From positions 372,001 to 436,000 of the forward strand of contig PMSM01000014.1 of the NCBI GenBank assembly GCA_003168335.1: 64,000 nucleotides of DNA. The letters are read 5' to 3'. Each line of letters starts with the position of its first letter. The first letter of the stretch is position 1. Below, one piece after another: positions 4,167 to 64,000 of the stretch. Source of the DNA: Blastocatellia bacterium. Its GTDB lineage: Bacteria > Acidobacteriota > Blastocatellia > Pyrinomonadales > Pyrinomonadaceae. The notes below the pieces were generated by a model. That model saw nothing but the letters and a program-made list of their open reading frames with translations, searched no databases and was not told the DNA's origin. Made by a program: the position numbers and the translations under genes.

Positions 4167-5459
4167 GTGATCGGCAAACTGGATCAACGCTATCGCGAAG
4201 CCACCATAGTTGGCGCTGGAATCGCCGGCATGCTCGCCGCGTATGTCCTCGACAAGCGCGGTTACTGCGTCACACTCCTCGAACAGAATCAACGCGCGGG
4301 TGGGCTGATACAGACGACCAGGACTGATTGCGGGATTGCTGAGAGCGCCGCTCATTCGCTGATCGCGACGGAACCCGTGCGTGAGTTATGCCACGATCTC
4401 GGCGTCGAACTGATCGAACCGCACAAGGAAGCCCAAGCCAAGTACATCGTCCGCGACGGCCGGCTGCGACGATTTCCGCTTACGTTTGGTGAAGCGATCA
4501 GCGCCTTTGCACACGCCGCGTTCACCCGATCCACTTTCGATAACACGACCTACACCGCGACCGACGCCACGCCGGATCTGGAGTCGTGGGCCATGAAGCA
4601 TCTGGGCAAAGCAGCGCTCGACTATCTGCTGACTCCTTTCGTGCGCGGGATCTATGGTGTGCAGCCCGCGGAGCTGGGCGTCGGCACCGCTTTCCCTTTC
4701 CTGAAGCTACCTGCGGGAAAGACTCTGCTGGGCGCCGCTCTAGCCAGACACCGAGACAAATCGTCAAAGAAGCAAACAAAACATCGGGCCGCGCCGCGCT
4801 TTGGCATGGGTGACCTGGTCGAGCATTTAGAGCGGCGGCTGGAACAGCGACTCGGCTCCAGGTTTTTGAAAGGCGAAAAGATCGACTATCTGCCGAACGC
4901 GCCGAATGTGATCATCGCCACGCCGGCGCACGCGGCGGCCAATCTCATTGAATCCGCATCGCAACCACTCGCCGACAATCTGCGTAGCGTTCGTTACACC
5001 CCGATCGTTTCGGTAACCACGTTCGTCGACCAGCGGGACTTTACTCACCCGGTCAACGGCGTGGGCGTTCTGATGCCCGCGCGTGAAGAGACCAAGTCGC
5101 TCGGCATACTTTTCAATTCCAGCTCGTTCGCCAATCGCGTGCATGACGAAGGACGTCTCGCTTCATTTACCGTAATGATGGGCGGCACTGCGCATCCCGA
5201 GTGGTTGGACGCATCCGACGCAGAAATTCGGCAAGCAATTAAGTTTGAACTATCGACGCTGCTGGGCATTCGCGAGCCGCATTACACGGTGATTCATCGC
5301 TGGCCCGCGGCCTTGCCGCAGTATTCGGTTGACCTGCCCAAGGTCTGGCAGAAAGCGCGCGATAGCTGGTGCGTCATCCCCGGTCGCATGCTGTTTGGTA
5401 ACTACACGGGTCAGATCAGCTTGCGCGGAATGATTGAGAGCGCGGCTGGTCTAAGTTAA
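4167..5459 (+). CDS. HemY-like FAD-dependent oxidoreductase (protoporphyrinogen-oxidase family)
   Basis: A 430-residue flavoprotein. The N-terminal Rossmann motif GAGIAG (about 16-21) with a following acidic strand end (LLEQN) and the RAGGL turn bind FAD. A middle TPFVRGIYGVQPAEL segment and a C-terminal GNYTGQISLRGMI segment match protoporphyrinogen oxidase and related amine-oxidase-fold enzymes. GTG at 4167 is preferred over the longer frame (from 3966) because GGAGG lies 7 nt upstream and homology starts there. It heads the cluster with the amidohydrolase-like, SDR and benzoyl-CoA-reductase-like genes, so it may serve in ring metabolism instead of haem synthesis; no other haem genes are nearby. 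The family call is firm; the substrate is not. Confidence 0.7.
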   Translation: MIGKLDQRYREATIVGAGIAGMLAAYVLDKRGYCVTLLEQNQRAGGLIQTTRTDCGIAESAAHSLIATEPVRELCHDLGVELIEPHKEAQAKYIVRDGRLRRFPLTFGEAISAFAHAAFTRSTFDNTTYTATDATPDLESWAMKHLGKAALDYLLTPFVRGIYGVQPAELGVGTAFPFLKLPAGKTLLGAALARHRDKSSKKQTKHRAAPRFGMGDLVEHLERRLEQRLGSRFLKGEKIDYLPNAPNVIIATPAHAAANLIESASQPLADNLRSVRYTPIVSVTTFVDQRDFTHPVNGVGVLMPAREETKSLGILFNSSSFANRVHDEGRLASFTVMMGGTAHPEWLDASDAEIRQAIKFELSTLLGIREPHYTVIHRWPAALPQYSVDLPKVWQKARDSWCVIPGRMLFGNYTGQISLRGMIESAAGLS

Positions 5460-5486
5460 CGACATTTGATAAAGGAGCACCCTGTT

Positions 5487-6419
5487 TTGGAGAAAATCAA
5501 AGCCATCGATTTTATGTACTATGTCGCGACGCCCGAGTTCATGGAAAAATGGGACCGCGCCAAAGAAGGCGAACTCGTCTGTCGCATGGAGAAAGCGATC
5601 GGCGGACTGCCGCGCTTTGTCTCGATCGAAGAGATGCTGCGGCAGATGGACGACGCCAGCGTGGAAAAAGTCTTCATCACGCAGTGCAAGATGTGGTCCT
5701 ATTGGCGCAAGTGGATGTACATGGACACGCAACTCGAAGACGTCCTCCAGTACACCGAACAATATCCCGATCGATTTGTGGGGCTAGCCGGTTATAACCC
5801 ATTTCGCATCAGGGAGAGTCTCGCCGAGATCGAACTCGCAGTCACCAAGCACGGATTCAAAGGCGTCTATGTCCACATCTACGGCTTCGACATCGCTCTG
5901 AACGATCCGAAGATGTATCCCCTTTTCGCGAAGTGCGTGGAATTGGATGTGCCGGTGTCGATGCAGGTGGGGCACGTGCTCGAGGCCTCACCCAGCGAAG
6001 GCGCGCGGCCGATGTTCCTAGATCGCATCGCGTGCGATTTTCCGGATTTGAAAATGATCGGCGCGCACACGGGCTGGCCCTGGGTCGATGAACTGCTGTC
6101 GGTTTGTTACAAGTGGGAGAACATCTGGTTTGGGGTCGACGCGTGGCTGCCGAAGTACCTTTCGCCGCAGATCATTCAGTTCATTAATAGCCGTATGGGT
6201 CGCGATCGTTGTATCTGGGGCACGAACGGTTTGCCCTGGAAAGAAAGCCTGAAACAGCTTGGCGACCTGGGCTTGAAAGAGGACGTGCAGAAAAAGATCC
6301 TGCGTGACAATGCCGTGGAGTTGTTCAAGCTCAGCAGCGAACAAGACTCAACCAAGCCACTCGTTTGTGTGAGCCAGGGAGTGGACACTCGGGCGCAGCC
6401 TTTGATGCCGGCACGCTAA
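5487..6419 (+). CDS. Amidohydrolase-2-fold protein with substituted metal ligands
   Basis: About 310 residues forming an amidohydrolase-related TIM barrel of the decarboxylase/lactonase type. A histidine-rich strand GAHTGWPW (192-199) fits the family, as does WGTNGLPW (244-251) near the C-terminus. Two usual metal sites differ. The N-terminal DxHxH is replaced by IDFMYY (7-12), and the late Asp of the GSDxP-like motif is Asn. The protein may therefore bind no metal, or bind it differently. Start: TTG at 5487, nine bases after AAAGGAG; an in-frame TTG at 5466 lies before that site. It starts 28 bp after the HemY-like gene and is followed by an SDR, so it is probably part of the same aromatic or acyl-CoA pathway. 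Confidence 0.65.
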   Translation: MEKIKAIDFMYYVATPEFMEKWDRAKEGELVCRMEKAIGGLPRFVSIEEMLRQMDDASVEKVFITQCKMWSYWRKWMYMDTQLEDVLQYTEQYPDRFVGLAGYNPFRIRESLAEIELAVTKHGFKGVYVHIYGFDIALNDPKMYPLFAKCVELDVPVSMQVGHVLEASPSEGARPMFLDRIACDFPDLKMIGAHTGWPWVDELLSVCYKWENIWFGVDAWLPKYLSPQIIQFINSRMGRDRCIWGTNGLPWKESLKQLGDLGLKEDVQKKILRDNAVELFKLSSEQDSTKPLVCVSQGVDTRAQPLMPAR

Positions 6420-6439
6420 TCGAGAAACACGTGCGGGAT

Positions 6440-7207
6440 ATGGTCGATATGAATGACAAGACAGTAATCGTAACCGGCGGCGCCCGGGGCATTGGGCGCG
6501 CGGTCGTGCAGGCTTTTGCCGAAGCCGGGGCTGACGTTGTGATCGCCGATCTACGTTTCGAAGACGCCAATGACACGGCCGTGAAAATCAGTGGGACCTC
6601 TGGCCGGCGCGTGGTTGCGGTCCAAACCGACGTAACCAAACGCGAAGACATCGAGAAGCTCCGTGATGAGACGCTAAGAATGTTTACCAAGATCGATGTC
6701 CTGATTAATTGCGCCGGCTGGGATCGCCTGCTTCCCTTCCTCAAAACCACGCCGGACCTTTGGCAGAAAGTACTTTCAATCAATTTTCTCGGCGTCGTTA
6801 ACATGTGCCACGTAATTCTGCCGCACATGGTGGAGCGCAAGCAGGGTGCCGTAGTCAACATCAGTTCAGACACGGGGCTCGTCGGGTCTTTTGGCGAAGC
6901 GATTTATGCCAGTTCAAAGGCCGCCATCATGGCCTTTTCAAAAACCATCGCCCGCGAACATGCCCGCGACAATATCCGGGTCAACGTGGTCTCTCCCGGG
7001 TTATGCGATACGCCTCTAATTGATGAAATGCGCGCAGACGAACTCACCGCGAAAATTCTTGGTTCGATCGTTAACTTTATTCCCTTGAAGCGCCTGGGAC
7101 GGCCCGACGAAATTTCTCCACTGGTCGTGTTTCTTGCTTCTGACGCGGCCAGCTACATCACGGGCCAGGTCTACAGCATCAACGGCGGACTGAACATGGT
7201 TGGGTGA
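6440..7207 (+). CDS. SDR oxidoreductase resembling BadH (2-hydroxycyclohexanecarboxyl-CoA dehydrogenase)
   Basis: Classical short-chain dehydrogenase of 255 residues. TGGARGIG (12-19) binds NAD(P), and CAGWD replaces the NNAG strand. The catalytic Ser is at about 142-143, and Tyr156 and Lys160 lie in YASSK. The C-terminus ends in an ITGQVYSINGGL stretch. From memory, the NAGWD variant, REHARDNIRVNVVSPG and the C-terminal ITGQV..SGGL closely follow BadH of the cyclohexanecarboxylate/benzoate pathway, but 3-oxoacyl-ACP reductases share much of this. ATG at 6440 is chosen because upstream codons overlap the previous gene; ATG 6449 is also possible. Its position before the reductase-like genes supports oxidation of an alicyclic 2-hydroxyacyl-CoA. 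Confidence 0.7.
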   Translation: MVDMNDKTVIVTGGARGIGRAVVQAFAEAGADVVIADLRFEDANDTAVKISGTSGRRVVAVQTDVTKREDIEKLRDETLRMFTKIDVLINCAGWDRLLPFLKTTPDLWQKVLSINFLGVVNMCHVILPHMVERKQGAVVNISSDTGLVGSFGEAIYASSKAAIMAFSKTIAREHARDNIRVNVVSPGLCDTPLIDEMRADELTAKILGSIVNFIPLKRLGRPDEISPLVVFLASDAASYITGQVYSINGGLNMVG

Positions 7208-7283
7208 AAACCGATGATAGCCGACACGATCAATTACGGAGACACCATCTCGGATCTCAACTACGGCTCGGCCGTTCGATGTG

Positions 7284-7429
7284 CGGAAAGGCTCAGCCTT
7301 TCCGATACGGTCGCTCAATTTGTTCTGGGAGGCTACGCCTCGAACCCTAAGACCGAGGCATAGCCTCATCAACACAGGTTAGAGGGCCGGAAAGGCAAAG
7401 CCTTTCCGCACATCAGGCGGCAAAGCCGC
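7284..7429. repeat. Cluster of short hairpins upstream of the reductase-like genes
   Basis: Five small inverted repeats are packed in 146 bp: CGGAAAGGCT/AGCCTTTCCG at 7284-7304, GAGGC/GCCTC at 7329-7341 and 7355-7367, CGGAAAGGC/GCCTTTCCG at 7388-7408, and GCGGC/GCCGC at 7417-7429. The first and fourth are copies of each other. They fill the 293-bp gap between two co-directional genes; otherwise I see no feature there. Confidence 0.7.
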
Positions 7430-7500
7430 AAACGACGTAGGGAACGATGCAAACTTAAGCTGAAGCGCTACCCAACTGCGCATTGTGAGTTGAATCAAAA

Positions 7501-8667
7501 ATGACCGAACCAATCTTTCACGAATGGCGAAACAGATCGCTCGACGATGCAATCTACGAATGCCGCGAGCTGTTTGAAGACACCACTTTTCCAACCGTGA
7601 AGCGTTGGCGGGAACGCGGCGGAAAAATAATCGGTCATTTCCAGGTTAACTTTCCTGAAGAGATAGTTCATGCCGCTGGTCTCTTGCCATTCAAAGTTCG
7701 TGGCGCTCCCATCGACACTGTCCAATCGGACTCGCACTTTGGATCGTACCTCTGCTCGATTCTCAAGACCTCGCTCGAGCTCGCCCTCAGTAACACTGTC
7801 CCGCTTGAGATGTTCGTTACGCATCCCATTTGTGACGCTGCGCGCAACCTCGGGGCCGTGTGGGGACGCAATGTTTCCTATCCATGTCAGATTCTGTATC
7901 TCCCGCAGAACCCGAACTCGCCGCATTCTGTGATCTATCTCCGTGGTGAGTACGACCGGTTGAAAAGGTCCATCGAAGAGATCTCCGGAGAGACTATCAC
8001 CAACGATGCGCTCCGAAATTCGATCGCTGTCTTCAACGAGAATCGCCTGCTCATGCGTGAGTTGTACGACATAAAAAGGGATACTCCCTGGCTCATTCCA
8101 GCCGATGAAGCGTACGTGCTCGTAGCGCTGGCCGGACTAATTCCGCGCGAAGAACACAACGAACTGCTGCACACGTTGCTCCCGCAGATTCGCGCGCGCA
8201 GTGCGCGGACGCAGGACAAAGTCCGGGTGGTGTTCGAAGGTGGTTTCTGCGAACAGCCGCCGCTGGACTTGATTCGCGCCATTGCGCGCTCGTGTTATGT
8301 CGTCGATGACGATCTGCTGATCGGGCTGCGCTGGTTGCTCGAAGACGTTCCGCTCGACGGCGATCCGCTGACAAATCTGGCCGAAGCCTATCTCGAAAAA
8401 TCTTCATATAGCCCGGTCCAACACGATCTGCGCAAGCCAAAGGAGAAGATGCTGCTGGCCCGGATGCGAAACGCGCGCGCCGACGCCGCCATCATCACGG
8501 CCGCCAAGATGTGCGAGCCGGGCCTCGAAGAGCAGGTCGCCTACACTCGCGCGCTCGACGAAGCAGGCATTCCGTATTTCGTCGGCGAATTTGAAGAGAG
8601 CATGACCAGCTTTGATTCCATGGAAATCCAGTTGGAGACGTTCGTCGAAAATATTTTGTTTAGCTGA
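7501..8667 (+). CDS. Benzoyl-CoA reductase-like subunit (BzdN/BcrC-like, 2-hydroxyacyl-CoA dehydratase fold)
   Basis: A 388-residue member of the HgdB/BcrC/FldBC family. The N-terminal part carries the typical [20 protein letters not shown] stretch. [16 protein letters not shown] and a C-terminal [10 protein letters not shown] supply three cysteines placed like the [4Fe-4S] ligands of the family. The C-terminus ([13 protein letters not shown], then QLETFVENI) is characteristic of these subunits. In class I benzoyl-CoA reductases such a subunit pairs with a second, related one to bind the acyl-CoA and do the two-electron ring reduction. ATG start; the stop abuts the next gene. Two unlike ASKHA genes downstream favour a reductase over a dehydratase, which has one activator. 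Confidence 0.75.
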
Positions 8668-8679
8668 TTGTCCAAAGAC

Positions 8680-9963
8680 ATGACCCAGACACATGACATC
8701 GTCGGCCGCGGCAATCGTGATGGCGCGGCGCTGTTTCAAAAGTGGTTCACTGAACTGAATCACACCTCCGACGTCGGCGGGCAGGCCGCTTACGTTTTCG
8801 TCATGGGTAGCATGGCCGAACTGCTACGCGTTTTTGATCTGCCGATTGTGATGCCGGAGATAAACTCGCTGCAAACCGCCGTGCGTCGCGTCGCGCATGA
8901 GTACCTGGACCAGGCGGAAGACTATGGCTATTCGCCGGATATTTGCGGGTATGTCAAAGCCGACGTCGCCGTCCAACTCAGACACGGCGAACATCCGATG
9001 GGTCGCATTCCGCAGCCTTCGCTCGCGGTGCTGACGAACGCGTGCAACACGTACATCAAGTGGGCGGAAATCTGGGAGCGCATGTATCACATTCCGATCT
9101 TCACCCTCGATATTCCGGGAACCCGGGCGTGCGGTAAACAGACCTGGCCCGGAGAAAGTGATTTCGAGAACGATCGCAAGTACGTCCTGGCCCAGGTAAA
9201 AGAGCTAATCACTGTTTGCGAAGGTCTCACCGGAAAGAAGTTCGACATCGATCGTCTGCGCGAGACTTTGCAGCACGCAAATGTCATGAGTCGTGGCTGG
9301 CGCCGGGTGCTCGAACTGAACCAGAGTACGCCGTCGGTCTTCAACGCGCTCACCGACGGAACGATTTACCTGGGCGTGTCGAATGGCTTCCGCGGCACAT
9401 CCGAGGGCGCGAAGTATTTCGAAGATCTGGTCGAAGAGATGGAGTTCAAGGCCGCGCAGGGCATCGGCACGATGACCGACGAAAAGTACCGCCTGCTATT
9501 CGTCGGGGTTCCGTGTTATCCGATCTTTCGGCGCTTTAACGAGCTATTCAGTGAATGGGGCGGCACGTTCGTGAACTCTACTTATCTTTGGTTTGCCGCG
9601 GGTGGAGTGGCCCAGGGGTACGAATACGATCTGAAGCGGCCACTCGAGAGTTTTGCCGAAGGGGTTCTGATCTACGTGCGCAATGCCATGGACAGCATGT
9701 TCTATCAGGAGCAGGCACTGGCCCAGATGATCGATCCGTTTCACGTCGACGGCGTGGTGTATCACCCGATCAAGAGTTGTCGCACGGTCTCGACCGGACT
9801 GGCTGACGGTCGTCGCGCGTTGATGGCCTCGCGCGACATTGCGAGTCTGTTCATCGAGTCGGACATGATGGATCGTCGCGTGGTGTCAGAGGCCCAGCTG
9901 AAGAACCGGGCTGATGCGTTTTTTGAAGGACTGGCGTCGCGGCGACTGACCGCCGCCCACTGA
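8680..9963 (+). CDS. Benzoyl-CoA reductase-like subunit (BzdO/BcrB-like, 2-hydroxyacyl-CoA dehydratase fold)
   Basis: A 427-residue paralogue of the preceding subunit and a second HgdB/BcrB-type protein. Cysteines in SPDICGYVK, LTNACNTY and IKSCRTVSTG are placed as candidate cluster ligands. The segments MPEINSLQ, IPIFTLDIP and MDGVVYHP-like (HVDGVVYHP) match the family. The first ATG at 8680 is chosen; an in-frame TTG at 8668 directly after the upstream stop would add four residues. The tight spacing suggests coupled expression with the 7501 gene, and the two should form the substrate-binding heterodimer. Confidence 0.75.
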   Translation: MTQTHDIVGRGNRDGAALFQKWFTELNHTSDVGGQAAYVFVMGSMAELLRVFDLPIVMPEINSLQTAVRRVAHEYLDQAEDYGYSPDICGYVKADVAVQLRHGEHPMGRIPQPSLAVLTNACNTYIKWAEIWERMYHIPIFTLDIPGTRACGKQTWPGESDFENDRKYVLAQVKELITVCEGLTGKKFDIDRLRETLQHANVMSRGWRRVLELNQSTPSVFNALTDGTIYLGVSNGFRGTSEGAKYFEDLVEEMEFKAAQGIGTMTDEKYRLLFVGVPCYPIFRRFNELFSEWGGTFVNSTYLWFAAGGVAQGYEYDLKRPLESFAEGVLIYVRNAMDSMFYQEQALAQMIDPFHVDGVVYHPIKSCRTVSTGLADGRRALMASRDIASLFIESDMMDRRVVSEAQLKNRADAFFEGLASRRLTAAH

Positions 9964-9972
9964 GTCCCGTTT

Positions 9973-10047
9973 AGAGTTCAAGCTTTAGCTTGCCACTGGA
10001 CAGGTGGTCAGTACCACCTGGCAATCAGCAACCTAAGGGTGAACTCT
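9973..10047. repeat. Palindromic repeat, family F copy 1
   Basis: Outer arms AGAGTTCAAGCTT and GGGTGAACTCT, with an inner AGGTGGT/ACCACCT hairpin. A related element lies at 55583-55640. It occupies the 110-bp gap between the two pairs of reductase-like genes. Confidence 0.6.
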
Positions 10048-10073
10048 GAACCCACCGAATAGATGGAGTTTGT

Positions 10074-10898
10074 ATGGCATACGCAGCCGGCGTTGACGTC
10101 GGATCAACTCAAACCAAAGCAGTCATCATCGACGAAGCCAGCGAGATCGTGGGGCGGGCGCTGATCGATACGGGCGCGAACGTTATCGCTGCCGCCGAAA
10201 ATGCTTTCGCCCAGGCCCTCGACTCCGGTCATCTCGACGAACGCGAGGTGGAATACGTGATCGGCACTGGCTACGGCCGCTATCGCGTGACGTTCGGCAA
10301 TGCCCAGGTAACCGAGATCAGTTGCCATGGGCGCGGCGCAGTGCACATGTTTCCGAACACTCGCACGGTGGTCGACATGGGCGGCCAGGATACAAAGGCA
10401 ATTCGCGTGAACGCGACCGGCGAGATCGTCGACTTCTGCATGAACGACAAATGCGCCGCCGGTACCGGCAGGTTTCTGGGGGCGGCGTCTGCCGCGCTCG
10501 ACATTCCGCTCGACGAGTTAGGCGAAGTGGCATTGCGCGCCGAGCGAGCGGTGAAGATCAGCACGACGTGCACGGTCTTTGCAGAGTCTGAAGTTCTCTC
10601 CTGGCTGGGTAAGGGGAAGAAGATCGAAGACATCCTGCTAGGCGTGCATCAATCGATCGCGGCACGCTCGATCGGTTTGCTACGGCGCGTCGGGATCGAG
10701 CCGGAAGTAACCTTCACCGGAGGCGTCGCCAGGAACATAGGGATGATCGCAGCACTTAATAAAGGAATGGACCTGAAGGTGAACGTAAGCCCTGATTCGC
10801 ATTTCATCGGCGCCCTCGGAGCGGCCCTGTTCGCGCTGGACCACATCCGCGCGAGCCGCGTTCCCGTGGTGCAGGAAGTTGCTCAGGAAGTCGCCTAG
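10074..10898 (+). CDS. Benzoyl-CoA reductase-like ATPase subunit (BzdP/BcrD-like, ASKHA fold)
   Basis: A 274-residue ASKHA-fold ATPase of the BcrA/BcrD/HgdC family. [10 protein letters not shown] (6-15) is the phosphate-1 motif and DMGGQDTK (101-108) the phosphate-2 motif. NDKCAAGTG (124-132) and [11 protein letters not shown] hold Cys127 and Cys166, the two cysteines that bridge a [4Fe-4S] cluster between two ATPase subunits in the family. Such proteins couple ATP hydrolysis to low-potential electron transfer into the partner reductase. ATG start. The size matches the small ATPase subunits of Azoarcus-type (bzd) enzymes. Confidence 0.8.
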
Positions 10899-10960
10899 CA
10901 GGACGGGCATCACTGCCCACCGTACGCATGATTGGAAAAACTTCGGACCGGATACCTTCT

Positions 10961-11821
10961 ATGACTTACACCGTGGGCATCGATGTCGGCTCTACCTATG
11001 CTAAGGCGCTAATTCTCTCCGATGACTTTCGCATCGTTGGCAAGGCGATGGCCAACACCGGTTTCAAACTCGCGGCAGTCTCGCGCAAACTGTTCGACCT
11101 GTCGCTTGAACAAGCCGGCCTGAAAGACACCGATGTTGCCTACGTGGTTGCGACCGGCTTTGGCCGCCACATGGTTCCCTTCAGCAACGTGGCCGTGACG
11201 GATCTAACGGCGAGCGCACGGGGCACGGCATTTCTGTTTCCCAACACTCGCACGGTTCTGGATGTCGGCGGGCAAACCATGAAGGCGAGTCGACTGGACG
11301 GAACAGCGAAAGTGAAATCTTTCCGGCTGAACGACAAGTGCGCCGCGGGCACGGGCGCATTCATCGAAAAAACCGCACGCTACATGGGCTACTCGACCGA
11401 AGAGATTGGGCCGCTCGTCGCCACCTCGAAAGTGGCCGTGCCGATCTCCGGCGTCTGCGCTGTTTTTGCCGAGTCCGAGGTGATCAATCAACTATCCATG
11501 GGCGCACCACCAGCGGACATCATGCATGGAGCGATCTCGTCGCTCGTCGATCGTTCTGTCCAATTGATGCGGCGGGTACAGATGGAACCCGAATACACAC
11601 TCATCGGCGGCATCCTGCGCTTCGGCATGATGGCCCGCGTTGTGCGCGAGAAGTTGAACTCGGAAGTAAACGTTCCCGAAGGCGAGATGGTTCAATACAC
11701 GACCGCTCTGGGCGCGGCCATCCTGGGCCACCAGCGCTTGCGAAAACTGAAAGAAACCGGTGTTGAGGTTTCCCGCGTGGCGGAAACAGTGGCGGGGGTA
11801 AGCCGGGCACCGGTCTTCTGA
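10961..11821 (+). CDS. Benzoyl-CoA reductase-like ATPase subunit (BzdQ/BcrA-like, ASKHA fold)
   Basis: A 286-residue second ASKHA ATPase, clearly paralogous to the previous gene. GIDVGSTYAK (6-15), NDKCAAGTG (124-132) and the GVCAVFAESEV stretch again place cluster cysteines at 127 and 166. In the phosphate-2 motif the usual GGQD is GGQT, so the acidic residue is missing. ATG at 10961 starts exactly where homology starts; an ATG at 10928 would add 11 unconserved residues. Two different ASKHA subunits are the mark of class I benzoyl-CoA reductases, against the single homodimeric activator of dehydratases. Confidence 0.78.
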   Translation: MTYTVGIDVGSTYAKALILSDDFRIVGKAMANTGFKLAAVSRKLFDLSLEQAGLKDTDVAYVVATGFGRHMVPFSNVAVTDLTASARGTAFLFPNTRTVLDVGGQTMKASRLDGTAKVKSFRLNDKCAAGTGAFIEKTARYMGYSTEEIGPLVATSKVAVPISGVCAVFAESEVINQLSMGAPPADIMHGAISSLVDRSVQLMRRVQMEPEYTLIGGILRFGMMARVVREKLNSEVNVPEGEMVQYTTALGAAILGHQRLRKLKETGVEVSRVAETVAGVSRAPVF

Positions 11822-13173: not shown

Positions 13174-13193
13174 GACCCTCCCGTGACATTGAA

Positions 13194-13402
13194 GGCCCGT
13201 AGGGCCGGCATGCAATAGCCACGCCCGTAAGGGCGTGGATCACAGACGCCTCAGCACGACTGAGCGCCGAAGGTGCGGCACGAAACAATGATTGATGGGA
13301 TCGCATGACATAGAGTGTCGACCCTTCGGGCCTCAAGGCCGGTCAAGACGATCGCGACCACGCCCTTACGGGCGTGGCTATTACATGCCGGCCCTGCGGG
13401 CC
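13194..13402. repeat. Large inverted repeat, family C (45-bp arms)
   Basis: Arms 13194-13238 and 13358-13402 are near-perfect inverted copies (43 of 45 by eye), and each arm itself holds two small palindromes (GGCCCGTAGGGCC, CCACGCCCGTAAGGGCGTGG). The loop of about 120 bp has no ORF of note. It fills most of the 380-bp gap between the propeller and transpeptidase genes. Confidence 0.8.
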
Positions 13403-13554
13403 TAAGCTAGCCTCGTTCTGCGAAAAGTTTCTCATCGCTTTGCGCAAAAGCCCTCATTAAGAACCGCCGACAGCTTGATAAGACGCCGCAATCCAAGTAT
13501 CGCGCGGGCACAAAGATTGCTCTTTGACCAAAGCGAAAGGCTGGTCTCGTTACC

Positions 13555-45624: not shown

Positions 45625-47199
45625 TCACTTCTTCGGATGACACTCAACACACTGAAACTGAGATATATCGCCAAGATTGACTGGGTGTTGGAAGGGCTTG
45701 TTTGGTTTATGGCAATAATCGCATTTGTGTTCGGCCAGCGCGCCCAGGTCAACCGGATGTTGGAACGGTCCGGTCTTGACTGAGGCCGCCGGGTTCATTG
45801 AATCGTAGATCATCGTGTGACAGACGTTGCAGTTGTTGGTGATCACTTTGCCGGTGTTGCTGACGTGCTCGCCATCGTGACAGCGGAAGCAGCCCGCGAA
45901 ATACAAATGGCCGATGTTATTGGGGTGCGTCTCCCAGTCGGTCTTCATCTCCGGGAAAAAGTAGGTTTGAAAGATCCGTTGAACTTCGGTGACGGCGCCT
46001 TTGATCGCAGCCTGCTTCTGCGCGTACACATCTTTGTAGTTCGTTTGATAGAAGTCATTCAGGCCCTTATCAATTGAGGTTAGCGCCTGCGGCGTTGTTT
46101 CGTATGAGCCGCTCAGGACTTCAACCGCTTTTCGCTTGAGATACGGTATCGAAGGATCCAACCTGCCGGCGACGAAAGCCTGGTCCACCGCAACATCCGG
46201 CGGTTGATAGACGTGCGCGGGACGATTATGACAATCAACACAGTCCATCCGGCGCTTAGTGGCGGCGGCAACCTGATCCGGTGGCAGGGGCCGGGTGCGA
46301 TCATAAAACTCAGTGATGTTGCCTTCCCTATCTTTGATGCGTACCCAGGGAATTACCTGACGATGCTCATCAGTCGCAATGTAAGTGATTTCATTCGCGA
46401 TGTTCATGTGCCAGTGGATGCCGGTGACGAGCCCGGTGGTCGGACTTCCCCCGCCGACGTTAATCAACATTCGCCTCTGCCGCAGAGTATTGTGTTCGTC
46501 GTAGCCGTAACGATTGAAGACCTTCATTTGCGCGCCAAAAAACTTTTCGGGCCAGTGACACTGCTCGCAGGTTTCCGGGGCCGGGCGGAGGTTGTGAACA
46601 GGCGTGGTTATGGGCCTTGAAAATTTGTTGAAGGTCACTGCATAGAGCTGATAAGCGCCGGAAAGTTTTGAACGCGCATACCAACCGGCGCCTGATCCAA
46701 CGTGACAATCGACGCAACGGACGCGCGCATGAGCGCCGGCCTCATAGGCCGTGAATTCCGGCTTCATCACCGTATGACAGGTCTGGCCACAGAAGGTAAC
46801 CGATTCCGTGAATTCGAATGCGCGATAGCTTACGAAAGCGCTGCCTGAGACAAAGAAAAACGTGACTATGAGAAAAGCCAGAAGAGCACGCCGCGCATGA
46901 GGGTCGTTGAGATCCAGCTTTGGGTAAGCCATTATTGCAGAGGGCGCAGATCGCCGTCGCCGTCGCCGTTCCAGGATCATCCCGGCTACGACAACGAACA
47001 GGCCGAACATCAGAACCGAGGGAATAATTATGTAAGTGAGGATTCCCACATAAGGATTCTCAACAGTTGACGTGACCTCTATGAAAAAGAGGAGCACATC
47101 ACTTGCCAGGCTGGCGATGGAGATCGCTGCCCCGACAAAGCTGATGTAGTTACGGAAGAGGCTCGGTCTTTTGAGAGCCAGTGGTTCGATCTCACCCAT
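45625..47199 (-). CDS. ImcH-like octahaem NapC/NirT-family cytochrome
   Basis: A 524-residue inner-membrane quinol-side cytochrome. Three N-terminal transmembrane helices (about 16-40, 53-80 and 103-125) are followed by eight CXXCH motifs (the first CGQTCH, the last CVECH at the C-terminal end). The first two, with the nearby GAHARVRCVDCHVGSG stretch, are typical of NapC/NirT quinol dehydrogenases. Three helices plus a large haem domain resemble ImcH of Geobacter, which feeds electrons from quinol to periplasmic cytochromes; ImcH has seven motifs as I recall. ATG 47199 is chosen; a TTG at 47223 would extend it. It is last of the cytochrome genes. Confidence 0.78.
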   Translation of the reverse strand: MGEIEPLALKRPSLFRNYISFVGAAISIASLASDVLLFFIEVTSTVENPYVGILTYIIIPSVLMFGLFVVVAGMILERRRRRRSAPSAIMAYPKLDLNDPHARRALLAFLIVTFFFVSGSAFVSYRAFEFTESVTFCGQTCHTVMKPEFTAYEAGAHARVRCVDCHVGSGAGWYARSKLSGAYQLYAVTFNKFSRPITTPVHNLRPAPETCEQCHWPEKFFGAQMKVFNRYGYDEHNTLRQRRMLINVGGGSPTTGLVTGIHWHMNIANEITYIATDEHRQVIPWVRIKDREGNITEFYDRTRPLPPDQVAAATKRRMDCVDCHNRPAHVYQPPDVAVDQAFVAGRLDPSIPYLKRKAVEVLSGSYETTPQALTSIDKGLNDFYQTNYKDVYAQKQAAIKGAVTEVQRIFQTYFFPEMKTDWETHPNNIGHLYFAGCFRCHDGEHVSNTGKVITNNCNVCHTMIYDSMNPAASVKTGPFQHPVDLGALAEHKCDYCHKPNKPFQHPVNLGDISQFQCVECHPKK

Positions 47200-47316
47200 C
47201 TTGTTCTGCTCTAAGATAGACAATCAGGCAACGGCGCGCAAATCAGGTTTACCGGCGCCTAATAACACTTAGCCCTCTCTAACGGTTGGGCTTCTCACAC
47301 GCTCGTTTACCACATT

Positions 47317-47346
47317 GTGTCAGAAGCCCGCGCGTAAGCAAGGGCT
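47317..47346. repeat. Repeat family E, copy 1
   Basis: A 30-bp element beginning GTGTCAGAAGCCCGCGCG and ending AGCAAGGGCT. A partner GGGCTTCTCACAC just before it (47288-47300) makes a hairpin. The same 30 bp, inverted and with one mismatch, lies inside the nifJ coding sequence at 63169-63198. It overlaps the stop codon of the CbcL-like gene by two bases and lies between two genes, where it could attenuate transcription. Confidence 0.7.
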
Positions 47347-49330
47347 AGTTAGAACTCTTTCGATCTCGCGTATCCTGACCCGGCGAAAGCTCTTCGGTTT
47401 TCGTTTCTTCTCGCGTAGCCTGCTCCTTCATTTGTTCATACGCCAGTTCGTGCTCTTCTTTATATGACTCTTCAGACACTCGCCCGTCAATAAAAGCAAA
47501 GTTAACCGGATAAACGTCGGGATCGAAAATCACCTGATAAAAGTGCCAAACGATAATTGCCAGCGTCGCCAGCACCGCTTCGTAAAAGTGCACTGCGAGC
47601 GCGATATCAACCCACCAGCGCGGCAGGAAACCAAACACGCCAATCTTGAACCAGATCATGAGGCCGGTCAGGCCCATGATTATCGTGCCCCAAACAACGG
47701 CCCAATACTCGGCCTTCTCCGCGTAACCAAAACGCGCGATCTTCGGCTTCCGCCTTGTGACTCCGAGATAGTAGCCAAAATTCGCTACCACGTCTCTGAC
47801 GTCCTTCAACCTGGGCAGCATGTCCTTTACCCAGAGTCTTCCTTCTTTAGATAAGGCCAGGTAAAGAAGGTGATAGGTACCCACCAGAAGCATCACGACG
47901 GCGGCCACCCGATGAATTATCCGGCGCAGAAATTCGCTGTTGCCCAAAAGCCATCCCAGCCACGACTCAGGATATTGCAGCGCAAAGCCGCTCAACACGA
48001 GGACGATAAAGCTGGTGAGCAACAACCAGTGTTGGGCTCTTTGATTAGCGCTCAAGCGAATAATGCTTCGTTCCTGACGCCGTTTGGCCACCACTTTCTT
48101 GCGCCAGATGAGCGCGTTATGGACGATCATGCCGCCGATCACCAAAAAGATTAGGGGAAGATAAATCCAACGCACGATCCGGGTACCCACGACTCCCATG
48201 TCATGACGCGCGACTTCGGAAACCAGTCCGGAGGTCAAATGGATCTTGCCGTTGGTAAAGTTAGCGCTCGCGCCGACGTGGCACTGGCCGCAGGTCTGCG
48301 ACAGGTTGTTAGCGTTAACCATCGACTTGGCATCGGACGAAGGCAGGATATTGTGCACGCCGTGGCAGCTGGCGCAATTGGCTACTACCTTTGATCCAAG
48401 TTGTGAAGCTAACCCGTGATAACTGTCTTTATAACTGCTGACCCGTCCGCTCGCGACTCCGAATTCCTGAGTCAAAGCGACGCCTTCATGACATTTCGCG
48501 CACGAGTCGGTCCCTACCGCAGTCGTAGCCGTTGCCGTGGTCTGATCGAACGGCATCATGATGTTGTGAATACCGTGACAGTCTGTGCAGACGGGTGCGC
48601 GCGACACGCCGCGCGTTACGGCCTGTCCGTGAACGCTCTGAATGAACTCACCGGCCTCTGTCTTGTGACACTTGCCGCAGGTAGCCGGAATGTTAACCTT
48701 GGCAATCGATGACTGCGAATTCGATGCGGGTTGAATGTCGTGGCTGTTGTGGCAGTCAGTGCACACGGCCGCGCTGGTATTGCCGCGGGCCATGGCTTTC
48801 GCGTGAACGCTCTCTCGATAAGACAGGAATGGCCGGTCGCTGATGCCGCTTCCCTGCATCGCCGCTTTGTCCCCGTGACACTTGCCGCAGGTTTCAGCAA
48901 TGTTGGTGCGGTTAATTGTGGACTTTGGATCACCCTGCGGCAGGATCGTCGTCATGTCGCCGTTCTTCGTGTGGCAATCAAGACACGTCGCCGCTTTCGT
49001 ACCATTGCGAATCGCCTGGGCATGGAAACTGTGATCGTAGCCAGCGTGCGGCACGGTGTGGAAAAGGGAACCGGCTAAGTACGGAAGCGTCTTCCCCGGG
49101 CCGTGGCACCCCTGACACTGGAGACTTGGCGGCGCCGCAGGAGCGTTAGCATTAGGCCCGCCGATAATGCTTCCTTCGTTAGGCTTTACCGAAGACGCAG
49201 AAGTATTTTGATTAGCGTTTTGATTATCCTGGGCCTGGACAGGCTTCAGGGTGATCAAACGAGGCAGACTAAGCGCGGCGCAGAGAGATACTGCGGCCAG
49301 AACGATAGCGACGGCAAGGTAGCGTCTCAC
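47345..49330 (-). CDS. CbcL-like nonahaem cytochrome c fused to cytochrome b
   Basis: 661 residues: a signal peptide (hydrophobic about 5-24), a periplasmic domain with nine CXXCH motifs (about 74-350), then a membrane domain of five or six helices (about 385-610) of the FdnI/HydC b-type family with conserved histidines in HNALIW, QRAQHWLLL, IIHRVAAV, GTYHLLYLA and VWHFY. It ends in a charged tail. Such fusions (CbcL in Geobacter) oxidise quinol in the inner membrane and pass electrons to periplasmic cytochromes. As I recall, in CbcL the b domain is N-terminal, so the order here is the opposite. GTG start. Confidence 0.78.
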   Translation of the reverse strand: MRRYLAVAIVLAAVSLCAALSLPRLITLKPVQAQDNQNANQNTSASSVKPNEGSIIGGPNANAPAAPPSLQCQGCHGPGKTLPYLAGSLFHTVPHAGYDHSFHAQAIRNGTKAATCLDCHTKNGDMTTILPQGDPKSTINRTNIAETCGKCHGDKAAMQGSGISDRPFLSYRESVHAKAMARGNTSAAVCTDCHNSHDIQPASNSQSSIAKVNIPATCGKCHKTEAGEFIQSVHGQAVTRGVSRAPVCTDCHGIHNIMMPFDQTTATATTAVGTDSCAKCHEGVALTQEFGVASGRVSSYKDSYHGLASQLGSKVVANCASCHGVHNILPSSDAKSMVNANNLSQTCGQCHVGASANFTNGKIHLTSGLVSEVARHDMGVVGTRIVRWIYLPLIFLVIGGMIVHNALIWRKKVVAKRRQERSIIRLSANQRAQHWLLLTSFIVLVLSGFALQYPESWLGWLLGNSEFLRRIIHRVAAVVMLLVGTYHLLYLALSKEGRLWVKDMLPRLKDVRDVVANFGYYLGVTRRKPKIARFGYAEKAEYWAVVWGTIIMGLTGLMIWFKIGVFGFLPRWWVDIALAVHFYEAVLATLAIIVWHFYQVIFDPDVYPVNFAFIDGRVSEESYKEEHELAYEQMKEQATREETKTEELSPGQDTRDRKSSN

Positions 49331-49532
49331 AGACTTGGTTCCTCAGGAGCAGCCCTCAGAAAAATACCCTCGACGCCTTATCACCGCAAGCGGTTCCGTT
49401 GACATCGAGGGTACGCAAATTTGGCTGTAAAGTCTCGGGCGAGATTTACATGCATCACGCTCTGGCAAACCCTTCGGCTTGATCGCCGAAGGTCATCTGA
49501 AATCAGATCCTCGCTAAGCGCGCGGTTCCGAC

Positions 49533-49862
49533 TTACATGATGGACTTCATGTACGCGATCAAGGCCTTTGCCTGGCCGGAATCGATACCTTTATCGGCAA
49601 AGGCCGGCATGTTTGGTGGCTTCTCGGCCTTCTTGCCATTCAGTATCGATTGCACCATCTGATCCTCAGGGTGGGTCGAATCCCATTTCTTTTCCGCCTT
49701 GGCGCCATGACAGGCAAAGCACTTGGCTTTATAGGTTCCGGCTGCATCAAAGTCGTCCGCACTGGAGCGCGCGCGTACTGAAACCACCACAAAACTGGCG
49801 GCCAACATTACGCCGGCAAACGCGACTCCCAGCTTCATCAGACCATTAATCGTTATCTTCAT
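49533..49862 (-). CDS. Small monohaem cytochrome c
   Basis: 109 residues: a signal peptide (about 10-30), one CXXCH (CFACHGAKAEKKW, near residue 53) and a distal Met/Pro-rich segment (KAEKPPNMPAFADKG), as in class I cytochromes c. It is a likely soluble periplasmic electron shuttle between the larger complexes. ATG 49862, preceded by a GAGGAAGG site; an in-frame TTG at 49883 is less likely. It lies between the CbcL-like gene and the 4-haem gene on the same strand. Confidence 0.82.
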   Translation of the reverse strand: MKITINGLMKLGVAFAGVMLAASFVVVSVRARSSADDFDAAGTYKAKCFACHGAKAEKKWDSTHPEDQMVQSILNGKKAEKPPNMPAFADKGIDSGQAKALIAYMKSIM

Positions 49863-50159
49863 TCTCGCTTCTACCTTCCTCAAAGGAACTTAACAAACTC
49901 GGGGTTCAACCCGGAAAATACAACATGGCAATGACTGTGCCGCGCAGGGATCAGGGAAAATTGCGGACAGCTTCCGACCGTTTGCGTTCTCTTGCCCATG
50001 GGAGCCGGAAATTTACCCACAGGTGGATTAGATGATCATTAAAGATCATCACTTCGGGTTTGGTATCAGGCCAGGCGCTGGATGTACGGCCAGGGGGCCC
50101 TCTCCTCAGTAGATCTCCAAAAGGGAGAGGGCACCTACCAAATCAACATCACCACTAGT

Positions 50160-50738
50160 TCAAGCCGCCGCCTTCTTGTGACACTGCATGCATTTTTTCG
50201 AAGTCGGCGCCGTAGTGTCTGGTCTCTTCTTCGCCACCTCGTCATGACAAGTGCCGCAGTTATGATGAAACGCCTGTTGGTTGGTCATGATTGTCACGTC
50301 CGCACTACCCTCAAACTTGACCTGCGGAATCTCAGGCAGCAGCTTTGGCTTGGTATCCGCCCGGGCATGACAATCGCGGCAGACATTTACGGCCGGCGCA
50401 TTTGGATCCTTCTCAAGCAACTCCGCCGTCAAAGTAGTTGTGCGATCAGCCGGCCAGGCGGTTTTGTGCGGAGGATGCTTTACAGCTTCAGCCGCAGGTT
50501 GGGCTGTGTGATGGCATTCAACACAGGCGAGCTGTGTAGTGCCATCGACGCTGCGGTTTTTGGTGATGTGATCGAGGTGGTTGAACTTAATCGATCCAAG
50601 TTTCGCCTCAGCTCCCAGCGTGATTACTTCCGGCGGTTTCTTTCCGTCCTGGGCTGATACGTCGGCCGTGATCGTCGGGGTACTCGAGACCAGGAAAATA
50701 GCAAAAATGAAGGCTGCCAGTATCGTAAGAACTTTCAT
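50160..50738 (-). CDS. Tetrahaem periplasmic cytochrome c (c3/c7-like)
   Basis: 192 residues with a signal peptide (about 5-22) and four CXXCH motifs: CVECHH, CRDCHA, CGTCHD and CMQCHK, the last close to the C-terminus. Additional His residues (FNHLDH, HHNC) offer bis-His axial ligands, as in cytochromes c3/c7. ATG 50738 follows GAAAGGAG; the longer frame to 50864 is antisense-like. It lies 46 bp after the 9-haem gene and belongs to the same transcript. A likely periplasmic carrier. Confidence 0.8.
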   Translation of the reverse strand: MKVLTILAAFIFAIFLVSSTPTITADVSAQDGKKPPEVITLGAEAKLGSIKFNHLDHITKNRSVDGTTQLACVECHHTAQPAAEAVKHPPHKTAWPADRTTTLTAELLEKDPNAPAVNVCRDCHARADTKPKLLPEIPQVKFEGSADVTIMTNQQAFHHNCGTCHDEVAKKRPDTTAPTSKKCMQCHKKAAA

Positions 50739-50784
50739 AGTTAACTCCTTTCGAACCCGAGGTTCGTCTTCGGTGTTTCCTTTT

Positions 50785-51696: not shown

Positions 51697-51697
51697 A

Positions 51698-52939: not shown

Positions 52940-52984
52940 TCTTAGTTATGACAGTTCAAGCAAGCGCCAACGGCGCGGAATGCA

Positions 52985-53150
52985 AAAGCCTGGGGCAGCG
53001 CTCCAGGTGCGATTCCATCTGTTAATTCCAAGCCGCAACGCGGCGTAATTCTCCGGCACCCAACGTTCGGTCTCGGGCCAATTTTATTTCGCTCTTTCAG
53101 AGCCATGAAACATGTTATTTGCACTCACCTGTGGCGTTGCCCCAGGCTGT
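52985..53150. repeat. Inverted repeat pair, family B copy 3
   Basis: AAAAGCCTGGGGCAGCGCTC at the left and an inverted GGCGTTGCCCCAGGCT at the right, 100 bp apart; related to the family B pairs around the P2-ATPase gene. It fills the gap between two cytochrome genes on the same strand. Confidence 0.55.
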
Positions 53151-53154
53151 CCTA

Positions 53155-61944: not shown

Positions 61945-61984
61945 CGCATCCACCACGTGTCAGAGATTTAAGCTTCCTTGTGTG

Positions 61985-62027
61985 CGCCGCAGGCGGTTCA
62001 ATGGGAGGGGCCGCCTGCGGCGGTTTT
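61985..62027 (+). terminator. Rho-independent terminator after hsp20
   Basis: Perfect 12-bp arms CGCCGCAGGCGG (61985-61996) and CCGCCTGCGGCG (62011-62022), with a 14-base loop, followed by GTTTT. It lies 41 bp after the hsp20 stop and before nifJ. Confidence 0.75.
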
Positions 62028-62083
62028 ATGAATACGGTTTCTTGGAGTTACGAGATCGAACCGGTAGGAGACAACTGGGAAAC

Positions 62084-64000
62084 ATGACTAGCCGCACAGT
62101 CACAATCGATGGCAACGACGCCGCCGCACACGTTGCTTACAAAACCAACGAAGTGATAGCGATCTATCCGATCACTCCGTCTTCGCCGATGGGTGAATCG
62201 GCTGACGCCTGGGCCGCCCATGACGACAAGAACATCTGGGGCATGACGCCGCTGGTGCGCGAACTGCAATCCGAAGGTGGCGCCGCGGGAACCGTCCATG
62301 GCTCGCTGCAAACCGGCGCCCTGACTACCACTTTCACCGCAAGCCAGGGCCTGCTCCTGATGATCCCCAACATGTTCAAGATCGCCGGCGAGCAGACCAG
62401 CACCGTTTTTCACATCGCCGCGCGATCCATAGCCACGCATGCTCTGTCGATTTTCGGCGATCACAGCGACGTGATGGCTGCACGCTCGACAGGTTGGGGG
62501 ATGCTTTTCGCTAACTCGATCCAGGAGGTGATGGACTTTGCATTGATCTCTCAGGCCACCACCTTAGAAGCGCGTGTTCCCTTCCTGCATGTCTTTGACG
62601 GCTTTCGCACTTCGCATGAGGTGATGAAGATCCGGGAACTTTCTGACGAAGAGATTCGCGCGATGATCGATGATCAACTGGTGCAAGCGCATCGCCGGCG
62701 AGCGCTCACGCCCGATCATCCGGTGATGCGCGGCACGGCACAGAATCCTGACGTGTTCTTTCAATCACGCGAGCGGGCCAATTCGCTCTACACCGAAACC
62801 CCCGCGATCGTGGGACGCGTCATGGACAAATTCGCAGCTCTCACCGGGCGGCAATATCGGTTGTTTGACTATGTGGGCGCGCCCGATGCCGAGCGCGTGA
62901 TTGTAATGATGGGATCGGGATGCGAAACAGCCGAAGAGACCGTCACGGCTTTGTGTGCCCGCGGCGAAAAAGTCGGACTCTTGAAAGTCCGTCTGTACCG
63001 GCCATTCTCAGTAGACAGTTTTATCGCGGCCCTACCCGCGTCCGTCCGGACTATCGCGGTTTTGGATCGCACAAAAGAACCGGGCGGCGCGGGCGAGCCG
63101 CTCTATCAGGACGTGGTGACGGCGATCAGCGAAGCGTGTCAGAAGCCCGACCGTCAGGGAGGGCAAGCAGCCCTTGCTCACGCGCGGGCTTCTGACACTC
63201 CGCCGCGCATCATTGGCGGGCGCTATGGACTTGGTTCGAAAGAGTTCACGCCGGCGATGGCCAAGTCCGTGTTCGACGAGATGACCAAGCCTGCGCCGAA
63301 GAATCATTTTAGCGTCGGGATCACTGACGACCTTACTTTCACCAGTCTCGATGTCGATCCGAATTTCAATACCGAGCCCGAGGGGCAAGTCCGTGCGTTA
63401 TTCTGGGGCCTGGGCGCCGACGGCACGGTTAGCGCGAACAAGAATTCGATCAAGATCATCGGCGAAGAGACCCCGAATTACGCGCAGGGTTACTTCGTTT
63501 ATGATTCCAAGAAGGCGGGCGCGATGACCGTGTCGCACCTGCGCTTTGGACCCGAGCCAATCAAGAGCACCTATCTCATTCAGCGCGCCAGCTTCATCGC
63601 GGTCCATCAGTTCGACTTCCTGAACCGCTATCAGGTGCTCGACGCGGCCGAAGATGGCGCCACGCTGCTTTTGAATAGTCCATATGACGCGAATGAAGTG
63701 TGGGCCAACCTGCCGCGCCCGGTGCAAGAGACGATCATCGCCAAACGGATTAAGGTCCACACGATCAATGCCTACGCCGTGGCTAAAGAGAATCAGCTTG
63801 GCAATCGCACCAACACGATTATGCAGACCTGCTTTTTCGCCATCAGCGGCGTGCTGCCGCGCGAGGAAGCAATCACAAAAATCAAGGAATCGATCCGCAA
63901 GACTTACGGTAAGCGCGGTGAACCAGTCGTGCGACAAAACTTCGCGGCCGTCGATGCCGCACTTGCGCACTTGCATGAAGTGACGATACCGGCTGAGGCG
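62084..64000 (+). CDS. nifJ: Pyruvate:ferredoxin (flavodoxin) oxidoreductase, N-terminal part (cut by window end)
   Basis: The first 639 residues of a PFOR. Domain I with YPITPSSPMGE (about 27-37), the LQSEGGAAGTVHGSL and SQGLLLMIPNMFKIAGE segments, domain II (VMMGSGCETAEE) and the IGGRYGLGSKEFTP junction lead into domain III with an NTEPEGQ..FWGLGADGTV stretch. It oxidises pyruvate with CoA to acetyl-CoA and CO2, reducing ferredoxin or flavodoxin. ATG 62084 follows GGTAGGAG. Odd point: about 20 residues between domain II and the GGRYGL segment are encoded by a palindromic repeat (63136-63198), kept in frame. The C-terminal ferredoxin and TPP domains lie beyond the window. Confidence 0.93.
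   Translation, partial: MTSRTVTIDGNDAAAHVAYKTNEVIAIYPITPSSPMGESADAWAAHDDKNIWGMTPLVRELQSEGGAAGTVHGSLQTGALTTTFTASQGLLLMIPNMFKIAGEQTSTVFHIAARSIATHALSIFGDHSDVMAARSTGWGMLFANSIQEVMDFALISQATTLEARVPFLHVFDGFRTSHEVMKIRELSDEEIRAMIDDQLVQAHRRRALTPDHPVMRGTAQNPDVFFQSRERANSLYTETPAIVGRVMDKFAALTGRQYRLFDYVGAPDAERVIVMMGSGCETAEETVTALCARGEKVGLLKVRLYRPFSVDSFIAALPASVRTIAVLDRTKEPGGAGEPLYQDVVTAISEACQKPDRQGGQAALAHARASDTPPRIIGGRYGLGSKEFTPAMAKSVFDEMTKPAPKNHFSVGITDDLTFTSLDVDPNFNTEPEGQVRALFWGLGADGTVSANKNSIKIIGEETPNYAQGYFVYDSKKAGAMTVSHLRFGPEPIKSTYLIQRASFIAVHQFDFLNRYQVLDAAEDGATLLLNSPYDANEVWANLPRPVQETIIAKRIKVHTINAYAVAKENQLGNRTNTIMQTCFFAISGVLPREEAITKIKESIRKTYGKRGEPVVRQNFAAVDAALAHLHEVTIPAEA
63136..63198. repeat. Repeat family E, copy 2, inside nifJ
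   Basis: Perfect 14-bp arms GTGTCAGAAGCCCG (63136-63149) and CGGGCTTCTGACAC (63185-63198), with an inner GCAAG/CTTGC pair. The part 63169-63198 is the inverse of the intergenic element at 47317-47346 (29 of 30). It is translated as about 21 residues without a stop or frameshift. Confidence 0.8.

Follow-up and report, generated by a model that had tools for sequence, protein, structure and literature searches.

Within a window of 64,000 nucleotides (the whole stretch of DNA that we analysed) from a Blastocatellia bacterium of the Acidobacteriota, seven plus-strand genes occupy 4167-11821 in the order HemY-like flavoprotein, amidohydrolase-like protein (AMH), short-chain dehydrogenase (SDR) and four putative reductase subunits, N, O, Q and P (Table 1). 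Pfam placed the seven open reading frames (ORFs) in Amino_oxidase (the HemY-like protein), Amidohydro_2, SDR, HGD-D (twice) and BcrAD_BadFG (twice). Intergenic gaps are 6 bp between HemY and AMH, 293 bp between SDR and N, 0 bp between N and O, 110 bp between O and Q and 29 bp between Q and P. The AMH and SDR ORFs, as listed, overlap, and an ATG at 6440 or 6449 is the likely translation start of the SDR. GC content is flat across the region (0.567 before, 0.576 in and 0.567 after the reductase genes).

Table 1. Features of the window, with coordinates and the main basis for each assignment.
Feature	Position	Strand	Basis
HemY-like flavoprotein, probable neighbour	4167..5459 (ORF opens 3966)	+	TIGR00562 155 bits, cut-off 98
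AMH, Amidohydro_2-fold protein without canonical metal ligands; ring-opening hydrolase proposed tentatively	5466..6419	+	PF04909 112 bits
SDR, BadH-like short-chain dehydrogenase	6440..7207 (ORF 6365-7207)	+	TIGR03206 258 bits, cut-off 431
Palindrome CGGAAAGGCTCAGCCTTTCCG in SDR-N gap	7284..7304	no strand	2 copies/64 kb
Second copy of palindrome CGGAAAGGCTCAGCCTTTCCG, SDR-N gap	7388..7408	no strand	2 copies/64 kb
N, MbdN/BcrC-type subunit	7501..8667	+	MbdN 540 bits; tree
O, MbdO/BcrB-type active-site subunit	8668..9963	+	MbdO 516 bits; tree
Q, ASKHA ATPase, MbdQ-like	10074..10898	+	MbdQ 420 bits
P, ASKHA ATPase, MbdP-like	10928..11821	+	MbdP 321 bits
Pyruvate:ferredoxin oxidoreductase-like ORF, runs off window, outside operon	61982..64000	+	POR_N 257 bits at 62129-62824 (G000:C1:434129-434824)

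A first-pass annotation of this DNA had recognised two different dehydratase-fold and two different ASKHA subunits at 7501-11821 and had read them as a class I benzoyl-CoA reductase (BCR) with subunit sizes close to bzdNOPQ. The composition was borne out by the paired HGD-D and BcrAD_BadFG matches, and the assignment to class I held; the likeness to bzdNOPQ did not. In PDB sequence searches, 3-methylbenzoyl-CoA reductase (MBR) was the top match of all four subunits. Behind these top matches, N had HadC (130 bits) and BzdN (92), O had HadB (105) and BzdO (85), Q had the HgdC activator (230), and P had MbdQ (182) ahead of the Had activator (169). Among NCBIfam models, N scored best with TIGR02263 BcrC (264 bits, cut-off 421) and O with TIGR02260 BcrB (202 bits, cut-off 487), and both ASKHA proteins exceeded TIGR00241 (265 and 199 bits, cut-off 125). 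N shares 61.0% identity with MbdN, 47 and 43% with two proteins of a second reductase type discussed below (N'), 35-38% with four BcrC references, 28% with HadC and 26% with BzdN.

Phylogeny gave the same grouping. In a tree of 109 N rows, built with the usable N of 104 of 106 loci (none from L185 or L189; L062 and L183 are the same gene), the window lies within an 85-row clade that includes MbdN (SH-aLRT 100). Outside this clade fall eight N' proteins, HadC, BzdN, DCCP and nine BcrC references, the latter being those over the NCBIfam cut-off, from 9 of 369 genomes. The O tree (45 rows; 26 chosen Mbd-type, 6 N'-type and 9 Bcr loci as input) agrees, uniting MbdO with 27 rows that include the window (support 99/99); in both trees, the PDB rows drew program warnings about long branches. 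L016, on a contig of G157, a genome in the host's family, has the N closest to that of the window (91% identity); all four subunits, N, O, Q and P, are 91-94% identical in a genome of that family other than the host's. To judge from sequence, 7501-11821 almost certainly encodes a class I benzoyl-CoA reductase of the MBR type; the Bzd-like reading was dropped, given the low identity of N to BzdN and the position of BZD outside the Mbd clade. The window cluster resembles MbdNOPQ (PDB 9g87, 9gai, 9gal and 9gba) in the top matches of all subunits, in clade and in its two HGD-D and two ASKHA proteins, and differs in its acidobacterial host, in one residue of O (Tyr129, Phe in MbdO) and in the upstream AMH-SDR pair, although no Mbd gene cluster was compared.

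We scanned genome contigs for relatives of N and kept the best 80 of 240 (67-91% identical). By their record titles these are metagenome bins of Acidobacteriota, Chloroflexota, Gemmatimonadota, Planctomycetota, Actinomycetota, Pseudomonadota, Calditrichota, KSB1, Bdellovibrionales and a deltaproteobacterium. The Mbd-type clade is thus large, apparently uncultured and spread over about ten phyla. O accompanies N in 78 of the 80 loci and Q and P in 68 each, many loci being cut by contig ends, and this co-occurrence argues that the cluster did not arise by chance. Neighbour counts, which depend on thresholds that we set, gave a large crotonase like OAH, the usual ring-opening hydrolase, near the reductase in 40 loci, a zinc-dependent alcohol dehydrogenase like HAD in 28, a PaaX-like regulator in 21, hemerythrin in 6 and a member of the AMH clade in 5. 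None of the 80 loci has both AMH and OAH (one-sided Fisher 0.03), and OAH lies above its equivalog cut-off in three genomes with an Mbd-type reductase (532-571 bits). The OAH- and HAD-like genes beside these relatives suggest that much of the clade performs ordinary benzoyl-CoA chemistry. In 40 of the 80 relatives, from many phyla, P is followed by c5 (for example L042 4171-4476), a protein of about 100 amino acids in which two cysteines (CxxC) are invariant and a TR close to the end is conserved; the one member scanned had no NCBIfam or Pfam match, and its model (pLDDT 82) no PDB match at E 0.001. In L120 (14261-16206, genome G037), hemerythrin and a Beta_elim_lyase protein, presumably of the tryptophanase/tyrosine phenol-lyase family, sit between c5 and the crotonase.

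Residues expected of class I reductases are retained. A structural study (PMC11971306) assigns cluster cysteines 95, 128 and 380, Glu65 and His131 to BzdO and double-cubane cysteines 36, 73, 100, 263, 293 and 327 to BzdN, and describes the BCR and MBR types, unlike BZD, as permanent tetramers. Aligned to BzdO, window O has Cys93, Cys126, Cys371, Tyr95 and Tyr306; Glu64 corresponds to Glu65 by position only, as the alignment begins after it. Each of these six residues is present in 70 to 78 of the 78 O loci, with His for Tyr306 in one locus and the rest uncovered. Window O keeps the cluster cysteines and catalytic Glu of class I reductases. In N, every one of the 80 loci has Cys 85, 111, 250 and 338, while Cys 21 is found in 73 and Cys 265 in 69 of them. 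The nine BcrC references contain all six, which are also common to N'; only Cys 85, 111 and 338 correspond to BzdN ligands and to HadC cysteines, and no Cys of window N aligns with BzdN Cys36, Cys263 or Cys293. The BCR type (Thauera BcrABCD, R. palustris BadDEFG) shares with the window the N-O-Q-P composition, these six cysteines and the O cluster residues, but differs in the lower identity of N, in its separate clade and in equivalog cut-offs that the window proteins do not reach. The BZD type (BzdNOPQ, Aromatoleum) shares the class of function and the O cluster cysteines, but is more distant in N, where three of the six double-cubane cysteines align with Cys.

We next consider the two genes directly upstream. 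Across 162 genomes of the host's class, N was present in 16, the AMH clade in 15 and both in 14 (Fisher 3e-17, no correction for kinship). At 1e-20 AMH matched 40 of these genomes; the clade counted comprises the 15 at 73-100% identity, the next match being at 43%, and its members are 73-90% identical to window AMH. Two pairs of genome entries share the same contigs and are one genome each (G060 and G157; G061 and G173). The three genomes with N or AMH alone are cut by contig ends, G157 and G080 stopping inside the SDR and G082 having AMH, P, Q and a cut O. In all 14 genomes with both, AMH lies on the reductase contig, near the reductase. The AMH-SDR pair is directly 5' of an Mbd-type reductase in the window, L017, L018 (= L195), L021, L120 and L121, and directly 5' of the second reductase type, with N' 41-46% identical to window N, in L127, L128, L129, L190, L191, L192, L193 and L194. 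N' forms its own clade beside the Bcr and Mbd types; no solved relative of its own came to notice. Three further loci (L025, L032 and L196) have AMH with a Dch-like crotonase and a HAD-like dehydrogenase, the SDR being absent. The SDR had been called BadH-like, and TIGR03206 (BadH) is indeed its best NCBIfam family; its score stays below the curated cut-off, though the protein may nonetheless function as BadH does. Ser, Tyr and Lys are retained in 13 of 13 SDR loci.

The exchange of reductases is visible between close relatives. In a congener (G006, L191), HemY, AMH and SDR are 70, 84 and 81% identical to those of the window, whereas the reductase is of the other type (N 42%); the DNA match between the two (74%) stops at 7203, just before the SDR stop codon; further on, the match (68%) is confined to part of Q. 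Likewise, the two types are divided within genus g9, the Mbd type being in G157 and the second type in G145. With two reductase types behind it in congeners, the AMH-SDR pair goes with either. These results show a fixed association of AMH with the reductase in the host's class, where AMH-SDR is the reductase's probable partner. Among 22 non-acidobacterial reductase carriers, by comparison, none has a member of the AMH clade (best 32%). No title found in the open-licence literature describes the AMH-SDR-reductase arrangement. It is this neighbourhood, a fixed AMH-SDR pair with exchange of the reductase type, that is new; it is more than ordinary annotation and not a new kind of system.

AMH itself is unusual. 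The earlier call of an amidohydrolase-like protein stands as far as the family is concerned, but the canonical metal ligands are replaced. In 17 of 17 clade loci, Met13-Tyr14-Tyr15 takes the place of HxH, Gln163 that of the strand-5 His and Asn250 that of the strand-8 Asp, so that AMH does not have the ligand set of metal-dependent Amidohydro_2 enzymes; His197 is retained. More distant homologues weaken the idea that AMH alone lost its metal site: 15 of 15 have the strand-5 Gln and none of the four with an aligned strand 1 has HxH, although 12 of 15 keep the strand-8 Asp. The nearest folds to a model of AMH (pLDDT 77) are 3irs, LigW-type decarboxylases, the LigJ hydratase and LigY, which we take to be a C-C hydrolase. 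AMH would share the TIM-barrel fold with these Amidohydro_2 enzymes, going by its predicted structure, but is 15-24% identical to them. A different amidohydrolase, AMH2, lies near Chloroflexi reductases; it is 25-30% identical to AMH and, unlike AMH, keeps HxH, the strand-5 His and the strand-8 Asp.

The usual ring-opening genes had been reported missing beside the cluster, and a genome-wide search extended this: the best OAH match reached 72 bits (cut-off 464) and the best HAD match 88 (cut-off 339). Their absence goes with an arrangement, common to the lineage, of AMH and SDR alongside the reductase. We searched 23 reductase-carrying genomes (G145, G081 and G082 were left out of the AMH carriers) and found that OAH exceeded its cut-off in none of the 15 with AMH, where the best score was 138 bits, and in three of the eight without it (Fisher 0.03, kinship not controlled). 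One AMH carrier, G051, has a 422-aa crotonase frame that scores 137 bits as OAH. Within the Acidobacteriota, OAH without AMH occurs in G067, and the reverse in G064, whose AMH is outside the reductase stretch. The best hydratase candidate of the host genome (C9:309950-310720), beside a urocanate hydratase gene, scores 180 bits with TIGR03189 (cut-off 292), similar to six AMH-linked hydratase candidates (145-184 bits).

A ligase had also been noted as absent from this stretch. None lies beside the genes, but the genome-wide search found two benzoate-CoA-ligase-family proteins over the cut-off. One of them (541 bits, cut-off 375) adjoins kynureninase-like and TDO-like genes (G000:C9 506.8-510.7 kb, L122), a row that is perhaps an anthranilate-CoA route; none of the four neighbours examined around the second looks aromatic-pathway-like. 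The C9 ligase occurs in all seven genomes of the genus, although the reductase is in only two of them; among the genomes searched, 11 of 14 reductase carriers have it, as do 9 of 14 non-carriers. With no link to the reductase, it was set aside as a clue to the substrate. The reductase would act on benzoyl-CoA or a substituted form; class I BCRs also dehalogenate aryl-CoAs, according to PMC4992971.

In the bad pathway, hydration comes first, after which BadH oxidises and BadI hydrolyses (PMC9795900). With an unlinked hydratase added, an SDR and a hydrolase next to the reductase would complete a scheme of this kind. By analogy with its MBR relatives and with the published BzdNO structure, Q and P would use ATP to drive ferredoxin electrons to the clusters of N; from there they would reach O, whose [4Fe-4S] cluster would be the site of reduction of the aryl-CoA to a 1,5-dienoyl-CoA. 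An unlinked crotonase would hydrate the dienoyl-CoA; the hydroxy group would then be oxidised by the SDR, as by BadH, and the ring hydrolysed by AMH instead of OAH. The likeness to BadK-BadH-BadI thus lies in the hydration-oxidation-hydrolysis order and in the SDR, whereas the SDR scores below the BadH cut-off, no BadI lies beside the window cluster and AMH is not a crotonase. A four-subunit MBR-type reductase with AMH and SDR as dedicated partners is, in our view, the probable arrangement. That AMH opens the ring is a more tentative proposal, which we think rather unlikely to prove right as it stands. We are similarly doubtful of the fuller proposal, an acidobacterial benzoyl-CoA pathway in which OAH/BadI has been replaced by AMH as a new amidohydrolase-fold C-C hydrolase that lacks the usual metal site and is paired with a BadH-like SDR, with two class I reductase types exchanged behind this pair.

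Several observations weigh against this scheme. N and O are under the curated cut-offs of TIGR02263 and TIGR02260, and reductase activity is a prediction from sequence. The position of BzdO His131 is Tyr129 in window O and in 75 covered Mbd-clade loci, and Phe in MbdO and in nine of nine BcrB. No dedicated hydratase or ligase lies beside the cluster genes, and c5 has no match in the window. The OAH counts are small and come from kin that are not independent; a strict AMH-or-OAH rule fails, four of the eight carriers without AMH also being without a good OAH and a fifth having only a 166-bit frame. The fold likenesses of the AMH model fit several roles, and AMH2 co-occurs with a large OAH-like crotonase in three of five loci. 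These last points would suit an arrangement in which the reductase is the same, AMH (with the SDR) acts in a peripheral step, such as decarboxylation, hydration or hydrolysis of an aryl-CoA precursor, and an unrecognised crotonase opens the ring: the AMH model is near LigW-type decarboxylases and the LigJ hydratase, the host has at least eight crotonase-fold genes, none of them a clear OAH, and half of the AMH-minus carriers manage without a good OAH. Yet AMH persists next to two types of reductase, accompanied in some loci by the SDR and in others by a HAD-like dehydrogenase; this is more readily explained by a central step than by a feeder step for one substrate, and no AMH carrier searched has OAH over the cut-off. 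We consider a peripheral role for AMH a serious contender, with slightly less than an even chance.

Other explanations concern the reductase. An enzyme of MBR type by sequence might have another aryl-CoA as its natural substrate, for example anthraniloyl-CoA from tryptophan, as the C9 ligase beside kynureninase-like and TDO-like genes would suggest; but that ligase does not track the reductase, and relatives in the clade lie beside true OAH and HAD-like genes, which leaves this explanation rather improbable. Decay of a transferred cassette into a non-functional leftover would account for the missing c5, the unlinked hydratase and HAD and the presence of the reductase in two of seven genomes of the genus, but sits badly with four intact frames, retained cluster residues and subunits that are 91-94% identical in another genome of the family, and is in our judgement very unlikely. 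We give practically no credence to a 2-hydroxyacyl-CoA dehydratase with its activator or a double-cubane protein system: although these belong to the same superfamily and Had/Hgd proteins rank next among the characterised matches of N, O and Q, the cluster has two different ASKHA subunits, N is far closer to MbdN than to HadC, HadC has three of the six cysteines that N has in common with BcrC, and the N and O trees contradict the dehydratase grouping that the first-pass annotation had named as its refutation.

The MBR type, with one solved enzyme, thus belongs to a large clade of mostly uncultured bacteria from about ten phyla, and ATP-driven dearomatisation may be far commoner beyond the studied Proteobacteria than assumed. 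In Acidobacteriota, AMH-SDR stays constant as the type of reductase varies, and offers a specific candidate for a hitherto unrecognised ring-opening enzyme of unusual chemistry.

Among the remaining features, the short, perfect palindrome CGGAAAGGCTCAGCCTTTCCG occurs twice in the 64 kb, both times in the SDR-N gap, and in none of 100 shuffles; a stretch that overlaps its second copy (7393-7428) recurs inverted 3' of P in L198 (4684-4719). This gap is also the point at which the reductase type differs between congeners, and the palindrome may be a REP-like element tied to cassette exchange. Two Acido-Lenti-1 RNAs lie downstream of the cluster in opposite orientation, about 120 bp apart (13193-13238 on the minus strand and 13358-13403 on the plus strand), and a stretch similar to these RNAs lies between AMH and SDR in L194 (6608-6655 of the reverse complement). 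The HemY-like gene precedes the cluster as had been described and scores above its family cut-off, but membership of the pathway was rejected: it had no match in the neighbour loci examined and adjoins the cluster in only 2 of 20 mapped loci, the window and L191. It is probably a mere neighbour.

The host had been described as cytochrome-rich, which is true of the window: three proteins with multihaem cytochrome c matches lie at 45625-54501, of which one carries a NapC/NirT-like domain and another a cytochrome b561-like domain. The window also encodes a molybdopterin oxidoreductase with ferredoxin domains (17.0-19.7 kb) and an ADP-forming acyl-CoA-ligase-like protein (27.2-30.0 kb). The pyruvate:ferredoxin oxidoreductase-like ORF is a possible source of reduced ferredoxin, and together with the redox genes it is compatible with anaerobic growth and a supply of ferredoxin, a fit rather than a proof. 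Elsewhere in the host genome, a third BcrAD_BadFG protein is encoded at C13:512397-513221.

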